Positions 4,038 through 47,347 of a stretch of 47,516 nt of DNA are shown in pieces. The notes below the pieces were generated by a model. The model worked only from the letters and a program-made list of their open reading frames with translations, had not been told where the DNA came from and ran no database searches. The stretch is from Desulfotomaculum sp. GTDB taxonomy: Bacteria > Bacillota > Desulfotomaculia > Desulfotomaculales > Desulfallaceae. The stretch is from the NCBI GenBank assembly GCA_016841675.1, contig JAENYQ010000019.1:1-47516 (forward strand), read 5' to 3'. The position numbers were made by a program, and so were the translations under genes. How positions within the stretch are numbered: position 1 is the stretch's first letter; the number at the start of each line of letters is the position of its first letter.

Positions 4038-4436
4038 AATTAAACACCTCCATTATAAATATCCTCTTAATCTTTTTCTTTTCTAGATTATATATTAACA
4101 TGACTATTCCCTTTACTCAGTAATTCCCATTGATGAGATAAACATTTTTAATAAACAATTGTGCAACGCGGGGGTAGAGCTGTCATCCTGAGCGTTAGCG
4201 AAGGATCTAGATTCTTCACTTCGTTCAGAATGACACGACGCTGTACCACTTACTGAGTTAACGGTATAACCATGTATATTAATTCTTTGCTTAGCGAAAT
4301 TTATTTAAGGTAACCCTGTTTCGTATAGCTCAGAACTACTGCATACGCCACAAAATTTTTTGCAAGGTCAGGGGATGATTAAGTGAAAATCGGTAAAACT
4401 TTATTTATCGTACCGCATATCAAGGGAGTAATATAA
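4038..4436. other. Intergenic stretch dominated by a MITE-like repeat
   Basis: The interval is largely occupied by the repeat element at 4111-4265. The rest (4266-4436) is AT-rich and presumably carries the promoter of the ferritin-like gene; no clear promoter was assigned. Confidence 0.5.
4111..4265 (-). repeat. MITE-like element, copy A
   Basis: About 155 bases bounded by inverted termini CTTTACTCAGTAA and TTACTGAGTTAACG, with an internal palindrome GTCATCCTGAGCG...CGTTCAGAATGAC. It is in reverse orientation relative to the copies at 13521, 15481 and 40611. No coding capacity. Confidence 0.8.
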
Positions 4437-13420: not shown

Positions 13421-13718
13421 AACGAAGTGAAACTTCCATCATGAAGCATAATTATTTAAAAAAATGCTTTTTGTATTAAAGGGGATTGAGGGAAAATCAT
13501 AAAAACAAACATGGTTATACCGTTAACTCAGTAAGTGGTACAGCGTCGTGTCATTGTAGAACGAAGTGAAGAATCTAGATCCTTCGCTAACGCTCTTAGA
13601 TGACAGCTCTCCCCCCGCGGTGCACAATTGTTTATTAATAATGTTTATCTCATCAATGGGGATTACTGAGTAAAGGGAAAAATCATAAAAACAAAATAAA
13701 GGATGCGAGGTGTACGGC
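13421..13718. other. Intergenic region with MITE-like copy B
   Basis: Just under 300 bases; apart from the repeat at 13521-13677 it holds AT-rich sequence and the ribosome binding site of the next gene (GATGCGAGGTG). Confidence 0.5.
13521..13677 (+). repeat. MITE-like element, copy B
   Basis: Starts CGTTAACTCAGTAAGTGG and ends GGATTACTGAGTAAAGGG; the termini share the inverted core ACTCAGTAA/TTACTGAGT. The internal part AACGAAGTGAAGAATC..GATCCTTCGCTAACG forms a hairpin. It differs from copy C (15481) at only a few bases. Confidence 0.85.
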
Positions 13719-15480: not shown

Positions 15481-15636
15481 CGTTAACTAGTAAGTGGTAC
15501 AGCGTCGTGTCATTTCTGAACGAAGTGAAGAATCTAGATCCTTCGCTAACGCTCTTAGATGACAGCTCTCCCCCCGCGGTGCACAATTGTTTATTAAAAA
15601 TGTTTATCTCATCAATGGGGATTACTGAGTAAAGGG
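15481..15636 (+). repeat. MITE-like element, copy C
   Basis: Nearly identical to copy B at 13521; its left terminus has lost one base (CGTTAACTAGTAAG). The right terminus is GGATTACTGAGTAAAGGG. The flanking ATGGTTATAC is also shared with copy B, so the repeat unit may extend about 10 bases further left. Confidence 0.85.
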
Positions 15637-32417: not shown

Positions 32418-32456
32418 ACAGTGTCAGACGTTGAATTTCAACGTCTGACACTGTTT
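32416..32456. repeat. Perfect 20-bp-arm palindrome (GTGTCAGACGTTGAA type)
   Basis: AAACAGTGTCAGACGTTGAA, one base, then the exact inverse. It overlaps the stop codon of the oxidoreductase gene and ends in TTT, so it can serve as terminator. A decayed relative lies at 42780-42818. Confidence 0.75.
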
Positions 32457-40610: not shown

Positions 40611-40754
40611 CCGTTAACTCAGTAAGTGGTACAGTGTCGTGTCATTCTGAACGAAGTGAAGAATCTAGATCCTTCGCTAACGCTCTTAGATGACAGCTCT
40701 TCCTACGCGGTGCACAATTGTTTATCTCATCAATGGGGATTACTGAGTAAAGGG
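40611..40754 (+). repeat. MITE-like element, copy E
   Basis: Starts CGTTAACTCAGTAAGTGG and ends GGATTACTGAGTAAAGGG, as in copies B and C. It is shorter than they are because a TATTAAT-containing segment near the right end (TTTATTAATAATG) is missing. Termini and inner hairpin are intact. Confidence 0.85.
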
Positions 40755-40858: not shown

Positions 40859-42706
40859 TCAATGAAGCAGTTTTCTTTTGTTCTGGGCGAGTTTGAAACC
40901 GGTTGGTCGTTGATAATGCACATGCAGGATTTCCTTTGCTTTTTTACTTAAGGGCCCCCCCAGGTAATTACGGTATAATTCCTGGACGGCGGGGTTTTCG
41001 TGCGCCCGACGTATTTTTTTGTTCAAATCGATACTGTACAGGGCGTTGGCTCTTTTGCGGCGTACCTCTTCGAGTGCTTTTCGGCTCCTTTGTTCTGCAG
41101 ATATCGGTTGGCCGCCGCCGCCAACGCAGCCCCCGGGACAGCCCATAATTTCAATAAAATCAATTCTTTCACCGGCTTTTACCCGTTCCATCAAGCGTTT
41201 AGCATTTCTAGTACCGTGAGCCACCGCCAGACGGACATTCCTGTCGCCCAAAACAACGGTAGCCTCTTTAACTCCTTTCAATCCACGGAAAGTTGCAAAC
41301 TCGATGCGGCCTTTTAGTTCTTCTCCCCCGACCAGGGCCGAAGCCGTGCGAACTGCAGCCTCCATAACACCGCCGGTAGCGCCAAAAATATTCCCCGCAC
41401 CGGTGTTGATACCAAGGGTTTCATCGAATTCCTCGTCCGGCAGTGCGTCAAAATTAATCCCCGCCTCACGGATCATGCGTCCCAATTCCCGCACAGTAAG
41501 CACATAATCCACGTCCCTGGTGCCCTGGGTAACCATTTCCGGTCTGGCAGCCTCGTACTTTTTGGCGGTACATGGCATCACTGCCACCACTACCATTTTT
41601 TTAGCATTTAGATTGTTTATTTCAGCAAAATAAGTTTTTACCAGTGCACCCAGCATTTCCTGGGGCGATTTGCAGGTGGACAGGTTTTCCACATATTCCG
41701 GGAAGAATCGCTCGCAATAGCGAACCCACCCTGGGCTACAGGATGAAATTAAGGGAAGTTTGCCTTTACCATTCAGTCTCTCCAACAATTCGTGGGCTTC
41801 TTCCACAATGGTGAGGTCGGCGGCGAAAACAGTGGAAAAAACGTATTCAAAGCCTATCCGCCGCAGCGCTGCGACCATTTTTCCAGTTACTACTGCGCCT
41901 GCCGGCAGGCCAAAAATCTCACCCAGTGAAACTTGGGCGGCGGGTGCTGTTTGTACGACGGTAATTAGCTCCGGATCCTCAATGGCGTCCCATACTTCCC
42001 TGATGTACTCTCTCTCCGCCAGAGCCGCAGTTGGGCAGACAGTCAGACACTGGCCGCAGGCTATACAGTCAGACTCGGACATATCCTGCATGAAAGCTGG
42101 TGCGATTACCGTGTTGAAACCCCTGCGCTGGGCTGAGTATACATTCACGTCCTGTATTTTTTTACATACCGCCTCACAGCGACGGCACTTGATGCACTTG
42201 TTGTAATTGCGCGTAATAAAAGGATTTTTATTATGGACCGGCAGGTTCAGCCGCTCGCCGGTCAGGCGAATGCTGCGTACACCCAGGTCGTCTGCCAGTT
42301 TTTGCAAATCACAGTTCCGGTTTTTGACGCAGTTTACACAGTCAAGGTCATGTTCGGAAAGGAGCAGTTCCAACATCCTTTTCCGGGCCCGCCTGACTCG
42401 GGGGGTGTTGGTAAAGAAGCGAATACCCTCCTGCACCGGATAAACGCAGGATGCCTGCATCGTCCGCCGGCCGCCGCTTTCAACCTCTACCAGGCAGATG
42501 CGGCAGGAACCGGATGCGCTGATACCTTTCAGGTAGCAGAGGCTGGGCACATCAATTCCGGCCAGCCTGGCTGCCTCCAGGAGGTTGGCCGTGTCCGCCG
42601 GAACGCTTATTTCACGATCATTTATCCATAGCTTTATTTCCCGCCCATCCGTTACTGCTGCTTGACTGTCGGTCGTCTCCGCCTGATTGTCAACCAATTG
42701 TGGCAT
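40859..42706 (-). CDS. [FeFe]-hydrogenase, NAD(P)-linked type catalytic subunit (HydA/HndD-like)
   Basis: A 615-aa hydrogenase. N-terminal [2Fe-2S] domain (C57, C68, C71, C87), a His-Cys [4Fe-4S] domain (H119, C123, C126, C132), two [4Fe-4S] motifs (C171/174/177/181 and C214/217/220/224), then the H-cluster domain with L1 SSCSPGW (320-326), L2 VMPCTAKKYE (about 376-385) and L3 EIMGCPGGCVGGGGQP (519-534), and an SSU tail. No NADH-binding HydB/HydC partner lies nearby, so the electron carrier is open. ATG 42706 follows GCGGGGGTAGTACC. It is the last gene of the minus-strand cluster with LarA-like and GlcDF-like genes, after a 113-base gap. Confidence 0.93.
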   Translation of the reverse strand: MPQLVDNQAETTDSQAAVTDGREIKLWINDREISVPADTANLLEAARLAGIDVPSLCYLKGISASGSCRICLVEVESGGRRTMQASCVYPVQEGIRFFTNTPRVRRARKRMLELLLSEHDLDCVNCVKNRNCDLQKLADDLGVRSIRLTGERLNLPVHNKNPFITRNYNKCIKCRRCEAVCKKIQDVNVYSAQRRGFNTVIAPAFMQDMSESDCIACGQCLTVCPTAALAEREYIREVWDAIEDPELITVVQTAPAAQVSLGEIFGLPAGAVVTGKMVAALRRIGFEYVFSTVFAADLTIVEEAHELLERLNGKGKLPLISSCSPGWVRYCERFFPEYVENLSTCKSPQEMLGALVKTYFAEINNLNAKKMVVVAVMPCTAKKYEAARPEMVTQGTRDVDYVLTVRELGRMIREAGINFDALPDEEFDETLGINTGAGNIFGATGGVMEAAVRTASALVGGEELKGRIEFATFRGLKGVKEATVVLGDRNVRLAVAHGTRNAKRLMERVKAGERIDFIEIMGCPGGCVGGGGQPISAEQRSRKALEEVRRKRANALYSIDLNKKIRRAHENPAVQELYRNYLGGPLSKKAKEILHVHYQRPTGFKLAQNKRKLLH

Positions 42707-42779
42707 GGTACTACCCCCGCGTTAAAATATGGTCGGAGTTTATTCTTTGAACCCAGACCGTTTTTCATGCACCATTGGT

Positions 42780-42818
42780 ATCAGACGTTGAAATTTCTCT
42801 TTTGAATGTCTGACACCT
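42780..42818. repeat. Decayed GTGTCAGACGTTGAA palindrome
   Basis: ATCAGACGTTGAAATTTC and GAATGTCTGACAC form an imperfect inverted repeat related to the perfect one at 32416-32456. It lies between the hydrogenase and LarA-like genes. Confidence 0.55.
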
Positions 42819-42819
42819 A

Positions 42820-44073
42820 TTAGGGTAGGGGAACTAGCCTGTTACGCCAATCAAACTCAACCTCCTTCGGTTGTCCCACTACTTCCACGGCTTGGTTCTG
42901 GTGCAGCTCGGCAAGCAGGGCGGATGACACCCGCATGCTGGTTAGCTCCAGTGTGTTTTTGATATGAATCACCCGGGCTCCTTCAGGCTGTACGTATCCC
43001 AGACTTTCCAGCGCCGTTTCAATGGCGGTTCGGTCGTCTGGCAGGGTGATGGGCTGCATAGCCCGTTTGATAAACGTGCTGGTAACTACATTTTTGACAG
43101 TGACGTCCCAGTCAATTTTATTTACCAGTCGCTTGGTGGTGAAATCCGCCAAGCCGATTCCGTTGGCGTTGCCGTGAGTCTCATCGGTCAAGTCCAGCAC
43201 TACAATGCGCTGAATACGGGGGTGTTCCGGTTCCTGGACGCCCATGATGTGCATCCGCCCGATGACATTGGTATCCATGCCGGTGCCGCTATAGTTTTTA
43301 CCCATTTTTTCCAAGATGAGCAGGTCCAATTTATCAACAGGCAAGCGGGGGAGGATCTCCCTGGCTTCTTGCAGCAACTTTTCTTCACCGGCGGCGAACT
43401 GTTCCGGTGGCAGAGCCGTTATTTTCATAGTATCCTTGTGGGCATCCTCTAGGATGGCCAGACCCATAACAATGGGTAAGTTAGCCATGATTAGTCTGGC
43501 TGCGGCGGGGATAATTTGATGCAGTTCAGTAGCCCCGGAGCGGTGCAGGGTTTTAGCGCCTTGGGGTCCTCCCAACCCTATGGTGATCATCTTCTGCAGC
43601 CCACTTTCGGCGGGGCCGTGGAAGGCGGTATGCTCTTTGACTCGGTTTACTACTACTATGGCGTCACACTGGCGGGCGATTTCGGTTACGTATACCGGTA
43701 CACCCTGGTCTAGGACGCCAACTTGCTTGCATTCAACTCCGGTGCGTACCGGAGCTCCAACCTTATCTTCGGTAATTTTCAACGCGTCTAGGATCTGCCT
43801 TTGCCCGTCGTCGGTGCCGCCCCCGTGGCTGCCCATGGCGGCAATAATTTCCGGCTTGGCATCTAACGATTTAATAAAAATAACCACTGCGGATAAAATG
43901 TCGGTGATGTTGGTTATACCCCGACTGCCAGCGGTAATGCCCACCTTCTGGCCGGGTTTGATTTTCTCTGCCAGGCCGCAGCGGCGCAGTTGGTCATTTA
44001 CTGTGCCAGTTATGTCTTCGAGACGCTGGTGGGGAAAGTTTTGCTTGACGCTGACCATTTTAGGTAACTTCAT
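42820..44073 (-). CDS. larA: LarA-like nickel-dependent (lactate) racemase family protein (DUF2088)
   Basis: A 417-aa protein of the DUF2088/LarA family. The motifs are ITAGSRGITN (about residues 47-56), MGSHGGGTDDGQ (about 80-91), VNRVKEHTAFHGPAESGLQKM (about 146-166) with the His and Lys residues used in LarA catalysis, and IVVLDLTDETHGNANGIG. LarA interconverts D- and L-lactate using a nickel-pincer cofactor; related proteins act on other 2-hydroxyacids. The cofactor genes larB, larC and larE are not in this window. The neighbouring 2-hydroxyacid oxidase genes support a role in making both isomers usable. The second of two adjacent ATGs fits GGAGGTC better. Confidence 0.82.
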   Translation of the reverse strand: MKLPKMVSVKQNFPHQRLEDITGTVNDQLRRCGLAEKIKPGQKVGITAGSRGITNITDILSAVVIFIKSLDAKPEIIAAMGSHGGGTDDGQRQILDALKITEDKVGAPVRTGVECKQVGVLDQGVPVYVTEIARQCDAIVVVNRVKEHTAFHGPAESGLQKMITIGLGGPQGAKTLHRSGATELHQIIPAAARLIMANLPIVMGLAILEDAHKDTMKITALPPEQFAAGEEKLLQEAREILPRLPVDKLDLLILEKMGKNYSGTGMDTNVIGRMHIMGVQEPEHPRIQRIVVLDLTDETHGNANGIGLADFTTKRLVNKIDWDVTVKNVVTSTFIKRAMQPITLPDDRTAIETALESLGYVQPEGARVIHIKNTLELTSMRVSSALLAELHQNQAVEVVGQPKEVEFDWRNRLVPLP

Positions 44074-44149
44074 CATGACCTCCGTTAATAGATGTTTGCT
44101 TATCTATAAATTAGTATGGCGCTAGTTTATATTTATATTTATTTACCTG

Positions 44150-44227
44150 CGGGGGCACCCCTTGCGGGTGCCCGGTTTACCCATACCCCCGCATGAGCGG
44201 TAGGGGCACCCGCAAAGGGTGCCCCTA
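44150..44227. repeat. Two GGGGCACCC hairpins, intergenic palindromic repeat
   Basis: GGGGCACCCCTTGCGGGTGCCC and AGGGGCACCCGCAAAGGGTGCCCCT are each hairpins and are inverse-related to each other. They fill the gap between the iron-sulfur subunit gene and the LarA-like gene and may attenuate or stabilise the transcript. Confidence 0.7.
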
Positions 44228-45445
44228 CATGCTCATAGCCAGCAGGTCAACGGTGTGAACCACCACTGCACTGCTCCCAGCTTCTCTAAGCGAGCGTTCT
44301 ATCTGCATCCGGCAGGAAGGGCATCCGGTGGCCACTATATCGGCACCCGTTGCCAGGATGACGGTGGATTTTTTGCGGCCGATGGCACTGGATATGGCGT
44401 GGTGCTCTAGTTGAAACGACCCGGATGCGCCGCAGCACTGGTTGGCGTTGTTCATTTCCGCCAACTCTACTCCATCAATGGTTCGCAATAGTTCCCGGGG
44501 TTGTTTGGTGATGTCCTGATACCGAACTAGGTGGCAGGGGTCGTGGTAGGTTACCCGGACTTGCGTTTCCAGTCGGCCCGGATGCAGGTCCGCCCGAGCC
44601 AAAAACTCGCTGATATCGTAAACCGGGAAAGGCAGGTCCAGGCCTGCCGCCGGGTAATCCTGTTTCCAGGCCGAACCACAGGTGGCGCAGTCTACCACCA
44701 GTGCCTCGACACCGGTAGCCTGGAATGAGGCTCTATTCCTTTGGGCCATATACATAAAAGAACTGTGTTCGCCGCTGACCAGCGCCGGCATGCCGCAGCA
44801 CAACTGGTCGGGGATAACCACCTCGCATCCGGCGGCGTTTAAAACCTTGACTACGTTTTTACCTGTCTCGGTATAAATGTAATTACTCATGCAGCCAGTG
44901 AAATAACCAACCCTCATTCGGGTTCGGCCGGGCGGTGCAATTATACCCGGCAACCCGGAGCGCAAGGGTGCGGCGGCGATAGGGGGCAGCAGCGTTTCTT
45001 TTTCCTTCCAGATGCCGGGTAATATTCCGGTCTTCCTGACCAGGCCTTGTAATCCGCTTTGCTGGTACAACGCCAGGCCTCTGGCAGCCAGATTTAGCCT
45101 GCCCTCGTTGGTCAGGAAGTGCTGCAACACATTCTTTTTGACAAAGGGCAGAGAAAGCTTTTTAGCGGCTTGTTCCCGGGCCGCCAGTACCAGGCGGGCA
45201 GTGGGAACCCCGTTGGGGCAGTACTCCTCGCACTGGCGGCACAGCAGGCAATACGAAATAATCCGGCGGTAGTGTTCGGTATGCTCCAAGGTTCCATTGA
45301 GTATGGCTTTATAAAGCTGCACTTTTCCCCGGGCTACCATGGGCTCGTTTGAAAGTTCGGCAAAAACCGGACAGACCGAGCGGCATTTACCGCAGCGGCC
45401 GCAGCGGGCAATTAATTGTAATAGATTGGTTGTATTAGCGCTCAT
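44225..45445 (-). CDS. GlcF/LldF-like iron-sulfur subunit of a 2-hydroxyacid dehydrogenase
   Basis: A 406-aa protein with two [4Fe-4S] motifs (C15/18/21/25 CGRCGKCRSVCP; C66/69/72/76 CLLCRQCEEYCP) and two CCG domains (GYFTGCMSN with LCCGMPALVSGEHS; YHDPCHLVRY with NQCCGASGSF). This is the layout of glycolate oxidase GlcF and of D-lactate dehydrogenase iron-sulfur partners. It should take electrons from the flavoprotein encoded just upstream and pass them on. Its ATG overlaps the flavoprotein stop by 4 bases (ATGA), showing translational coupling. Confidence 0.92.
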   Translation of the reverse strand: MSANTTNLLQLIARCGRCGKCRSVCPVFAELSNEPMVARGKVQLYKAILNGTLEHTEHYRRIISYCLLCRQCEEYCPNGVPTARLVLAAREQAAKKLSLPFVKKNVLQHFLTNEGRLNLAARGLALYQQSGLQGLVRKTGILPGIWKEKETLLPPIAAAPLRSGLPGIIAPPGRTRMRVGYFTGCMSNYIYTETGKNVVKVLNAAGCEVVIPDQLCCGMPALVSGEHSSFMYMAQRNRASFQATGVEALVVDCATCGSAWKQDYPAAGLDLPFPVYDISEFLARADLHPGRLETQVRVTYHDPCHLVRYQDITKQPRELLRTIDGVELAEMNNANQCCGASGSFQLEHHAISSAIGRKKSTVILATGADIVATGCPSCRMQIERSLREAGSSAVVVHTVDLLAMSM

Positions 45446-46824
45446 ACTTTCCGCTCCTGAAAAATCTTACCGGGGTTTAAAATGCCTTTGGGATCAAGAG
45501 CATCTTTGATTCGCCGCATAAAATCAAGTTCATGGGGACCGAACTCCAGGTGCATAAAGGGTGCTTTGAGGATGCCAATACCATGCTCGCCGCTTAGCGT
45601 TCCGCCCAGCGATACCGCAGCCTGGAATATCTCTTCAATCGCTGCCTCTACTCGTTGCATTTCTTCGGGGTCGTTTTCGTCGGCAATAATGTTGGGGTGC
45701 AGGTTGCCGTCCCCGGCGTGCCCGAAAATGACCAAATTAATACCGTATTTATCCCTGATTCCCTGCAGTTTGATAATTATTTCCGGCACTTTGCTGCGCG
45801 GTACCGTGGCATCTTCGGAAATTTTGGTAGGCTTAATTTGTACCAGCGCTGCCGAAATTGCTTTCCTGGCCCGCCAAATCATTTCCCGCTCATCGGGTGT
45901 CTGAGCTGCCACCACTTCTCGGGCCCCGGCTTCCCGGCATACCCGGGCTACAATATCCGCCTCTTGGGCCACGGCGCTCTCCATGCCATCCACTTCGATA
46001 ATCAGAATCGCCTCGGCGTCCTGGGGCAGATTACAGCCGGAATAACGGGTTACGCACTGGATGGTCAGCCGGTCCATAATCTCCAATGTGGCGGGGATGA
46101 CACCTGATGTTGAGATTTTAACGACGGATTCCCCTGCTTTTAACAGGTCGTCGTAAACCGCCATCAGCGTTCTAACTGCTCGGGGGCGGGGGATCAGTCT
46201 CAGTGTGGCCTCGGTGATAATGCCCAGCGTGCCTTCACTGCCCACCAACAGCCTGGTCAGGTCATAACCGCTGACGTTTTTTACTGTTTTGCCACCTGCG
46301 TGCAGTATTTCCCCGGTGGGGGACACTATTTCCAGGCCCATTACATAGTCCCTGGTGACGCCGTATTTAAAACCTCTGGGGCCCCCGGCGCACTCGGCAA
46401 TATTCCCGCCGATAGTGCATGCGTCGCTGCTGGCCGGGTCGGGCGGGTAAAACAGCCCCTCCTTTTCGGCAGCTTGGTGCAAGTGGGCGGTGACTACCCC
46501 GGGCTGCACTACGGCCAACAAGTTTTCCCGGTCAATTTCCAGGATGCGGTTCATATCAGTGAGTACAATTACAATGCCACCTCTCACCGGCAGGGAGCCG
46601 CCGCTCAGGCCGGTGCCCGCGCCTCGGGGGTAAAGAGGGATGCCCTTTTCATTGGCCAGTTTGACAATGGCCGCAACCTGGTTCCTGTCCCGGGGCTTGA
46701 CTACTACGTCGGGCGTAAAATTGCGGAAAGTGGCGTCATATCCGTAACAAAAAAGCTCTTCCGGGGCGGTAAGAACTTTATTTTTACCAACTATTTCGGT
46801 GAGCTGTTTAATTACTTGCCGCAT
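45442..46824 (-). CDS. GlcD-like FAD-linked 2-hydroxyacid (lactate/glycolate) dehydrogenase
   Basis: A 460-aa VAO-family flavoprotein: an FAD_binding_4 domain with PLYPRGAGTGLSGGSLPV (about residues 60-77), DPASSDACTIGGNIAECAGGPRG (about 128-150) and ILHAGGKTVKNVSGYDLTRLLVGSEGTLGIIT, and a C-terminal FAD-oxidase_C domain ending in FGHAGDGNLHPNI and GTLSGEHGIG. It oxidises D-lactate, glycolate or a similar 2-hydroxyacid. ATG 46824 follows AAAAGGAGATTGGCAG. It is the first gene of the operon glcD-like, glcF-like, larA-like, with the hydrogenase downstream. Confidence 0.93.
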   Translation of the reverse strand: MRQVIKQLTEIVGKNKVLTAPEELFCYGYDATFRNFTPDVVVKPRDRNQVAAIVKLANEKGIPLYPRGAGTGLSGGSLPVRGGIVIVLTDMNRILEIDRENLLAVVQPGVVTAHLHQAAEKEGLFYPPDPASSDACTIGGNIAECAGGPRGFKYGVTRDYVMGLEIVSPTGEILHAGGKTVKNVSGYDLTRLLVGSEGTLGIITEATLRLIPRPRAVRTLMAVYDDLLKAGESVVKISTSGVIPATLEIMDRLTIQCVTRYSGCNLPQDAEAILIIEVDGMESAVAQEADIVARVCREAGAREVVAAQTPDEREMIWRARKAISAALVQIKPTKISEDATVPRSKVPEIIIKLQGIRDKYGINLVIFGHAGDGNLHPNIIADENDPEEMQRVEAAIEEIFQAAVSLGGTLSGEHGIGILKAPFMHLEFGPHELDFMRRIKDALDPKGILNPGKIFQERKV

Positions 46825-46878: not shown

Positions 46879-46930
46879 GATTGCAAATTTGTTGCAAATG
46901 TTAACCTATTTTAAAAGACTTTCATCCTTT

Positions 46931-46958
46931 TTGTATACATGAAATTTATTGTATGCAA
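46931..46958. promoter_or_regulatory. Putative operator pair TTGTATACAT / TTGTATGCAA
   Basis: Two near-palindromic 10-mers, 18 bases from start to start and about 107-134 bases ahead of the glcD-like start. They resemble GntR/FadR-type operators known from lactate and glycolate operons. No GntR gene is in this window. Confidence 0.35.
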
Positions 46959-47141
46959 AAGATTAGTAAGACAATCTAATAAGTGAATATTAATACTACC
47001 TATTTATGTAGTCAACAAAATCTTGGTAAGCAAATGCTTTATTCAATTAATGCATGAGTTAAGGAAAAAAATGTGCCAGAGAAAGATTCTGGCAGGAAAT
47101 AACCGGCGGGAGTGGAATATGATATTAGGGAAAATCAAATA

Positions 47142-47311
47142 CATTGTGCAGCAGGTGCCCTACGGGGAGAATAGGGAACCGGGTGAGATTCCCGGGCGGT
47201 CCCGCCACTGTAACCGGGGTAGCCCTCGCCGAAAACGTCACTGGTAAAACCGGGAAGGCGGGCGGTACGGGCGATTGAGCCGGAAGCCAGGAGACCTGCC
47301 TGCTTGCGCGA
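47142..47311 (+). ncRNA. Cobalamin (B12) riboswitch
   Basis: The conserved elements occur in order: GCAGGTGCCC, AGAATAGGGAACCGGGTGAG, CGGTCCCGCCACTGTAACCG and the GGAAGCCAGGAGACCTGCC box. The outer stem pairs CATTGTGCAGCAGGT with ACCTGC...GCGCGATG. It senses adenosylcobalamin and normally represses B12 synthesis, cobalt or cobalamin uptake, or B12-independent enzymes. A terminator follows at 47348-47382; the controlled gene lies past the window edge. Confidence 0.93.
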
Positions 47312-47347
47312 TGCGCCGTTTTTGGGCATTTTAAGTGGATGATGGAA

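Follow-up and report, generated by a model that had tools for sequence, protein, structure and literature searches.

Lactate utilisation systems that combine a GlcD/GlcF-type dehydrogenase with a LarA racemase have been described in anaerobes such as Desulfosporosinus SbF1, which has lutDF/glcDF, LarA and LarEBC. According to the available part of its description (PMC6372793), L-lactate stimulated lutDF, growth on lactate plus sulfate led to overexpression of permease, racemase and two dehydrogenase genes, and lactate had no stimulating effect on a paralogue named glcDF. For LarA itself, the accessible sections of PMC7583248, from which the L. plantarum residue numbers used below were taken, list Asp72 as catalytic and give lactate racemases a F-F pair after the second catalytic His. 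As regards the maturation of [FeFe]-hydrogenases, the portion of PMC4355364 at hand states that deletion of hydG in Clostridium thermocellum eliminated all [FeFe]-hydrogenase activity; in the excerpted text of PMC9431212, HydE and HydF on their own gave approximately 1% activation in vitro, and a motif search did not detect hydG in five of eight Clostridium acetogens, for which a variant HydG was proposed. Here, a stretch of 47,516 nucleotides of Desulfotomaculum sp. (assembly GCA_016841675.1, contig JAENYQ010000019.1, positions 1 to 47,516; hereafter the window) was analysed with respect to four genes that bring both themes together: a glcD-like gene, a glcF-like gene, a larA-like gene and an [FeFe]-hydrogenase gene (hydA).

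On balance, these genes probably form two adjoining but separate units, a glcD-glcF-larA module and hydA, in a species from which hydG has probably been lost. Under this reading, the LarA-like protein, a group 22 racemase or epimerase, would interconvert both forms of a 2-hydroxyacid, and GlcDF, a FAD/Fe-S dehydrogenase, would oxidise one of these to the 2-oxoacid, handing the electrons to some acceptor. The hydA gene would stand alone, lying near larA by inheritance within an old syntenic block, and with the gene for the HydG maturase probably lost its product would probably not, or only poorly, be activated unless HydG lies in an unassembled gap. Throughout, G000 denotes the genome of the window (a draft of 162 contigs, completeness given as 99.98%), other G-numbers denote genomes and L-numbers denote fetched loci.

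Gene content of the locus

Four complete open reading frames were found, all on the minus strand, and the coordinates, strand and glcD/glcF overlap given in a preliminary description of this DNA were confirmed, its four gene names holding in general terms. The GlcD-like protein (45442-46824, minus strand, 460 aa), a FAD-linked 2-hydroxyacid dehydrogenase subunit, carries FAD_binding_4 (155 bits) and FAD-oxidase_C (253 bits) domains and scored 529.9 bits against the glcD model TIGR00387, just below its cut-off of 567.9. Its gene overlaps by 4 bp (45442-45445) that of the GlcF-like iron-sulfur subunit (44225-45445, minus strand, 406 aa), which has a dicluster Fer4 domain and two CCG stretches. 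The best curated model for the latter was LdhH, with 268 bits over the C-terminal part of the model against a cut-off of 800, and the GlcF model NF008434 likewise stayed below its cut-off (114.1 against 333); with the LdhH score below cut-off, the sequence places the protein in a general class only and its specific function is not assignable. The domain make-up of GlcDF is nevertheless present, namely a FAD_binding_4 plus FAD-oxidase_C subunit and a dicluster/CCG subunit encoded by overlapping genes. Downstream follow the larA-like gene (42820-44076) after a gap of 148 nt and hydA (40859-42706) after a further 113 nt. The cluster is a hydroxyacid isomerase-plus-dehydrogenase module of a known kind and mostly ordinary, beside a hydrogenase linked to it by position. 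A literature search, largely without subscription journals, returned no title or abstract describing a glcD-glcF-larA-hydA cluster.

The LarA-like protein and its putative substrate

The larA-like gene (minus strand, 418 aa) encodes a LarA-superfamily protein assigned to nickel-pincer-nucleotide isomerase group 22. It matched Lar_N with 33.2 bits (cut-off 23.3), and its best curated model was NF052515, 'nickel pincer cofactor-dependent isomerase, group 22' (508 bits, cut-off 400). As it was the sole Lar_N match in the genome at E<=0.001, it is the only evident user of the nickel-pincer cofactor. A search of a collection of genome contigs with the single sequence found one relative, L041 ('MAG: Peptococcaceae bacterium BRH_c8a', 88% identity). 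Against solved structures the sequence gave no match, and a 20-row profile retrieved only unrelated proteins (E 0.0069 or worse). An AlphaFold2 model built on the 20-row alignment (mean predicted local distance difference test, pLDDT, 90.9), however, gave 19 Foldseek rows at E<=0.001, of which 18 carry lactate racemase, malate racemase or LarA-like in their titles, the remaining one being 4nar, a T. maritima protein titled by accession alone. With VIA-align, ranks 1-12 (Z 22.3 to 19.6) were all LarA or malate racemase entries plus 4nar, headed by LarA of Isosphaera pallida (9eid, Z 22.3), and the score fell to Z 6.2 at rank 13. Because the predicted structure matched where the sequence searches did not, the LarA-superfamily fold was regarded as settled.

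Residues R52, H84, H149, K162, H178 and K260 were invariant in all 20 aligned rows. The first five can be equated with R75, H108, H174, K184 and H200 of the L. plantarum protein, their order being the same and their spacing nearly so, a correspondence based on spacing and not on a residue-level structural alignment; on this basis K162 would be the cofactor Lys, H178 the Ni-ligand His, R52 the phosphate Arg, and H84 and H149 the catalytic His residues. K162 and H178 lie 16 positions apart, as do K184 and H200, while the pairing of K260 with K298 is less sure (H178-K260 distance 82, H200-K298 distance 98). The protein thus fits group 22, scoring above the cut-off of NF052515, having the LarA fold and keeping the inferred cofactor Lys, the Ni-ligand His and both catalytic His residues. 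It differs from lactate racemases in that the stretch from the second catalytic His to the cofactor Lys is 3 residues longer and, by the same spacing-based match, reads H149-T150-A151-F152, with T-A in place of F-F. Judged by its predicted structure and conserved positions, the window protein is a genuine member of the LarA superfamily whose identity as a lactate racemase is not established. Racemase activity, and with it a substrate and a direction, we infer.

No group 22 protein appears in the activity table of PMC7583248 as far as that source was available, and the phrase 'group 22' is absent from the main text of the papers searched for it, including PMC7583248 and PMC11770544; in the latter nine enzymes were assayed, whose membership of group 22 cannot be told from the accessible text. 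Since no substrate was found for group 22, the assignment of lactate as substrate is a guess, and the preliminary description's lactate is not supported, given both this placement and the T-A pair after the second catalytic His.

The same description had suggested looking for larBCE elsewhere in the genome and had regarded a lack of larC and larE as counting against it. LarB (299 bits), LarC1 (220), LarE (318) and LarC2 (131) were all present, each above its own cut-off, with larB, larC1 and larE clustered on contig C28 and larC2 on contig C134. LarC is encoded by two half-genes on different contigs (L062 7604-8455 and L063 7304-7786), larC1 lying between larB and larE. A LarC match was found in 15 of the 16 genomes of the family, as separate N- and C-terminal matches at different places in 11 of the 16 and as an N-terminal match plus a second, longer one in four further genomes (G018, G019, G020, G023); by these profile matches, unlinked LarC halves are common in this family.

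Recurrence of the glcDF-larA association

A group 22 member scored over the cut-off in 46 of the 113 genomes of the class that were searched. A tree of 36 LarA sequences was built from fetched loci (49 matches reduced to 36 different rows; L020, L024, L041, L062 and L063, which either repeat the window or G010 or lack larA, were omitted), and in 8 of these rows a GlcD or GlcF homologue lay within 2.5 kb on the same strand, a count that may miss some neighbours as many fetched loci have only about 1.5 kb of flank. The 8 linked rows require 3 changes on the tree, which may be gains or losses, and well-supported branches force all 3; the mean over shuffles was 7.4, and none of 500 shuffles was as low as 3. 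The occurrence of the glcDF-larA association in separate parts of the tree supports an isomerase-plus-dehydrogenase module. The prediction that a 2-hydroxyacid is used was therefore upheld in part, the recurrent pairing favouring isomerisation plus oxidation, but not for lactate in particular.

Elsewhere in the group, the larA genes of L045, L046, L048 and L081 lie beside differing 2-hydroxyacid or sugar-acid genes: a malate/L-lactate dehydrogenase, a TRAP transporter and a fumarate/tartrate-type hydratase in L081, a dihydroxyacid or phosphogluconate dehydratase and a sugar kinase in L046, and a LUD/CCG fusion with 2-oxoacid oxidoreductase subunits in L048. This variety of gene neighbours suggests several substrates within group 22.

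The preliminary description had envisaged a single lactate unit, in which LarA would racemise lactate, GlcDF would oxidise it and the electrons would leave through the adjacent hydrogenase as H2 in syntrophic growth. Desulfosporosinus SbF1, a related kind of organism with lactate-responsive lutDF and racemase genes, lends this some plausibility, as does the presence of larBCE here, and the window shares with SbF1 a GlcD/GlcF-type dehydrogenase, a LarA homologue, cofactor genes and an anaerobic host. The SbF1 system differs in that its LarA is called a lactate racemase, its lutDF is adjoined by a lactate permease and a regulator, and no adjoining hydrogenase is mentioned in the part of PMC6372793 available. 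In the window, no lactate permease domain was found among the 19 proteins scanned. Together with the lack of a substrate for group 22, the T-A pair after H149 and the indifference of the SbF1 glcDF paralogue to lactate, this makes a lactate unit unlikely.

Relation of hydA to the module

Synteny was read over 41 stretches (L041 and L042 overlap, and L062 and L063 are the lar loci of G000). The contiguous order glcD-glcF-larA-hydA was found only in the window, G010 and G012 among the loci read, which makes three of the four genomes searched in this genus; the remaining one, G011 (86% complete), gave no match to group 22. This co-stranded contiguity favours a single lactate unit, and its absence outside the genus counts against one. 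Within the same family, tblastn on fetched stretches found hydA without larA at the corresponding site in G015, G016 (whose contig ends shortly past hydA) and G017, and larA without hydA in G014 and G021. The gene table, which keeps the longest frame, missed hydA in L053, where an antisense frame had been kept and hydA is present; the presence of larA and hydA in L044, L047, L064, L068 and L069 was rechecked by tblastn. The surrounding block encodes CobT, a fructose-bisphosphatase, a pyruvate-kinase C-terminal-domain protein, a FMN dehydrogenase-like protein, DUF2148 and FapA, functions with no evident tie, and from this comparison of gene order the larA-hydA neighbourhood looks inherited and not operonic.

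The region directly upstream of hydA contains a conserved block (42707-42776, minus strand), 83% identical to that of G010 over 70 nt. Within it lies the element AAANAATA (42741-42748). The pattern occurs in 11 of 14 upstream regions of the hydA clade, including those of orthologues without larA, and is missing in G010, G061 and G065; shuffles gave a mean of 1.8, and none of 500 was as high as 11, figures that are exploratory in that the pattern was picked after viewing the sequences and the rows are related. A longer form occurs in 2 of the 14 regions and another form in 6. The hydA gene thus has its own conserved upstream block. Separate promoters and regulation of the hydrogenase, which had been named as what would speak against a joint unit, gain from this block, but separate transcription is not established by it.

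The statement that the link to the hydrogenase is only positional was borne out, the four-gene order having been seen only in the genus among the loci read and larA or hydA occurring without the other in relatives. Comparison with relatives, which had been proposed as a check, recovered the order in G010 and G012 but nowhere outside the genus among the 41 stretches. The hydrogenase as a functional part of a lactate unit was not supported, considering hydA without larA, larA without hydA and the separate upstream block.

As previously described, inverted repeats are present in both gaps. That between glcF and larA (44152-44228, no strand assigned) consists of palindromic repeat copies with 22-nt arms (95%) and 12-nt arms (100%), and related sequence was found at the hydE/MFS junction discussed below and at one more place in L096. 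That between larA and hydA (42774-42820, no strand assigned) has 20-nt arms that are 80% complementary; it is absent from the corresponding gap in G010 and G012, and its only notable other match, over the 144,512 bases of G000 read in the repeat comparisons, was window 32420-32450, with 15 identical bases. The latter site is itself a near-perfect palindrome built on GTGTCAGACGTTGAA, like the one in the larA-hydA gap. The terminator scan accepted no site within either gap. A role of the palindromes as shared operators or terminators was considered and rejected, as the first recurs elsewhere, the second is not conserved and no terminator was accepted.

The hydrogenase

The hydA gene (40859-42706, minus strand, 615 aa) encodes a stand-alone multi-cluster [FeFe]-hydrogenase of the NCBIfam group A6 type, with Fe_hyd_lg_C (314 bits), Fe_hyd_SSU, Fer2_4, NADH-G_4Fe-4S_3 and Fer4 domains and a score of 822.5 bits against NF040763 (group A6, cut-off 765). 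At E<=0.001 no other PF02906 match occurred in the genome, making this the only [FeFe]-hydrogenase catalytic domain found. All three H-cluster motifs are present (SSCSPGW, MPCTAKKYE and EIMGCPGGC), and a role in H2 metabolism would follow from its family.

The wording of the first motif raised the suspicion of a mutated H-cluster ligand. This was rejected, since the best solved relative, HydA1 7q4v (627 bits over residues 22-599), has the same Ser (TSCSPGW); as the Ser is common to both, it is no sign of HydA inactivity. The wording TSCSPGW did not occur in the papers that a literature search returned. The 7q4v structure belongs to the bifurcating HydABC of Acetobacterium woodii. Unlike hydA genes of the HydABC type, that of the window has no adjoining hydB or hydC, partners elsewhere in the genome not having been searched for; its neighbours are larA and, on the far side, a CBS-domain gene on the opposite strand. 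In a tree of 24 HydA sequences, likewise built from fetched loci whose often short flanks may hide some neighbours (25 matches reduced to 24 rows, 7 of which carry a hydB/hydC label assigned here from gene clusters), the window falls in a clade of 15 rows (support 95/97), none of them labelled with hydB/hydC-type neighbours. The lack of such neighbours also weighs against a single lactate unit, as does the failure to find hydG.

Absence of HydG

A whole-genome search of G000 with TIGR03955 found no HydG, nothing scoring above 123 bits, against 664 bits in G010 and 648 bits in G012. That 123-bit hit corresponds to a fragment of ThiH, sharing 81% identity with the ThiH-like protein of G012 and 35% with HydG of G010. 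The fragment, of 215 residues (L094 8601-9248, contig C17), has a thiE-like gene and a reading frame of 2800 residues as neighbours, and could reflect either a true truncation or an error of assembly. HydF (563 bits) and HydE (348 bits) are encoded by adjacent genes. The G010 locus runs hydF, hydE, hydG, a MFS transporter gene and glnA; that of G000 runs hydF, hydE, MFS and glnA on one contig (C61), with only hydG missing, and the hydE and MFS reading frames are 157 nt apart, dispersed-repeat sequence included (L096 8777-8935). Because no hydG was found in the assembly, the hydrogen release of the preliminary description is doubtful.

Across the class, group A6 hydrogenase was over its cut-off in 91 of 113 genomes and HydG in 88; both occur together in 84 of the 91. 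The seven without HydG are G000, G020, G027, G028, G075, G099 and G106, four HydG-less genomes having been identified by exclusion and G099 and G106 confirmed by direct search. Of these, only G000 (99.98%) and G027 (99%) reach a completeness of 95%. Among the partial HydG matches, those in G027 and G099 are ThiH, sharing 75% and 66% identity with the G012 protein; those in G020 and G075 lie closer to HydG, and these two genomes may carry a broken or incomplete HydG. The hydA of G027 (L055 5250-7082) belongs to the same clade, is intact and has all three motifs, its genome having only the broken HydG-model match to ThiH and no HydE-sized match in the HydG-model search. The Clostridium acetogens of PMC9431212 are alike in that, from the text of that source at hand, HydE and HydF were found and HydG was not; the present case differs in resting on a whole-genome profile search plus a gap at the hydE-hydG locus.

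Ratios of nonsynonymous to synonymous substitution (dN/dS) between G000 and G010 were 0.085 for hydA, 0.090 for larA, 0.101 for glcD, 0.179 for glcF, 0.193 for hydF and 0.291 for hydE. For hydF and hydE, the comparison of G010 with G012 gave 0.152 and 0.199, and for hydA that of G025 with G027 gave 0.105. Relaxed selection might be suspected from the higher values for hydE and hydF, yet these do not clearly exceed the values among the relatives.

Several observations weigh against two separate units with a lost hydG. The dN/dS of hydA is as low as that of glnA (0.085 and 0.075, G000-G010), and its dN to G012 is nearly equal for the window (0.129) and G010 (0.120), from which hydA appears to be under strong purifying selection with no sign of decay; a loss of hydG would therefore be recent, unless the gene lies in an assembly gap or HydG is dispensable. 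With 162 contigs in the draft, hydG could sit in a gap. As for separateness, the distance between larA and hydA is about 4-8 kb in G025, G027 and G032 (family f4) and in G065 (family f9), although on opposite strands in G065, and a long-standing larA-hydA link is possible; in the window the four genes are co-stranded, larA is separated from its neighbours by only 113 and 148 nt, the terminator scan accepted nothing in either gap, and read-through into hydA is likewise possible. In the LarA-like protein, the position of the catalytic Asp72 of LarA is, by spacing, Ala49.

That hydG lies in an assembly gap, the hydrogenase being normal, active and unrelated to the hydroxyacid module, is accordingly a possible explanation, though a clearly less probable one than loss. 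The draft state of the assembly, the intact hydA, hydE and hydF with dN values to G012 close to those of G010, and the dispersed repeats at the hydE-MFS junction, which could mislead an assembler, all speak for it. It has to contend with the order of hydE, MFS and glnA, which on a single contig is that of G010 with only hydG absent, and with the 99.98% completeness; hydG would need to be both displaced and unassembled.

A further possibility is that maturation of the hydrogenase proceeds without HydG, the CO and cyanide being supplied in some other way, or that the protein acts as an iron-sulfur oxidoreductase without need of the full H-cluster. G000 and G027 keep an intact hydA of the same clade with no HydG over the cut-off, their partial matches being ThiH (81% and 75% identity), and hydA is conserved in both comparisons (dN/dS 0.085 for G000-G010 and 0.105 for G025-G027); the in vitro activation of about 1% with HydE and HydF and the five of eight acetogens without detected hydG (PMC9431212, as excerpted) point the same way. 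Yet both assemblies are drafts and these are the only two near-complete cases here, the retention of all H-cluster motifs argues against a function free of the H-cluster, and the accessible texts propose a variant HydG in the acetogens (PMC9431212) and find HydG needed by genetics in C. thermocellum (PMC4355364). We therefore hold maturation without HydG, or such an altered function, to be very unlikely, and probable loss of hydG, beside a separate hydroxyacid module, remains the preferred reading.

Other features of the window

Upstream of glcD, a promoter-like site (TTGACT - 17 - TAATAT, 46987-47015, minus strand) is conserved in the closest relative, G010, at 191 nt from the glcD start codon in the window and 145 nt in G010. 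The promoter scan overall gave 11 sites against 7.0 (standard deviation 2.8) in shuffles; with the scan itself this near to shuffles, the site was credited because of its conservation in G010. An imperfect 19-nt palindrome (TTTTGTATAC ... GTATGCAAAA) lies at 46929-46960, also upstream of glcD, and is not clearly kept in G010; it resembles operators of the GntR type. Dispersed repeats of about 80-100 bp, 92-96% identical, occur at 4151-4235, 13559-13663, 15514-15622 and 40641-40740 of the window and on other contigs. A cobalamin riboswitch (47137-47317, plus strand, 116 bits) points off the window, and the gene that follows it in G010 is cobT.

Implications

The glcDF-larA module offers a concrete lead for assaying group 22, which is widespread and for which no assigned substrate was found. 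The HydG-less hydrogenase is the part of the cluster worth following. With hydG absent but hydE and hydF retained, it becomes possible to test whether an [FeFe]-hydrogenase has any function in nature without HydG, and the case serves as a warning that the presence of hydA alone is a poor basis for inferring H2 production. In two near-complete genomes an intact and strongly conserved hydA persists with no HydG found, HydG being the enzyme that makes the CO and cyanide ligands; that this stand-alone hydrogenase clade is retained and used without HydG is nonetheless very unlikely, and if it were so, the ligands would have to come from elsewhere or HydA would have to serve some other function.

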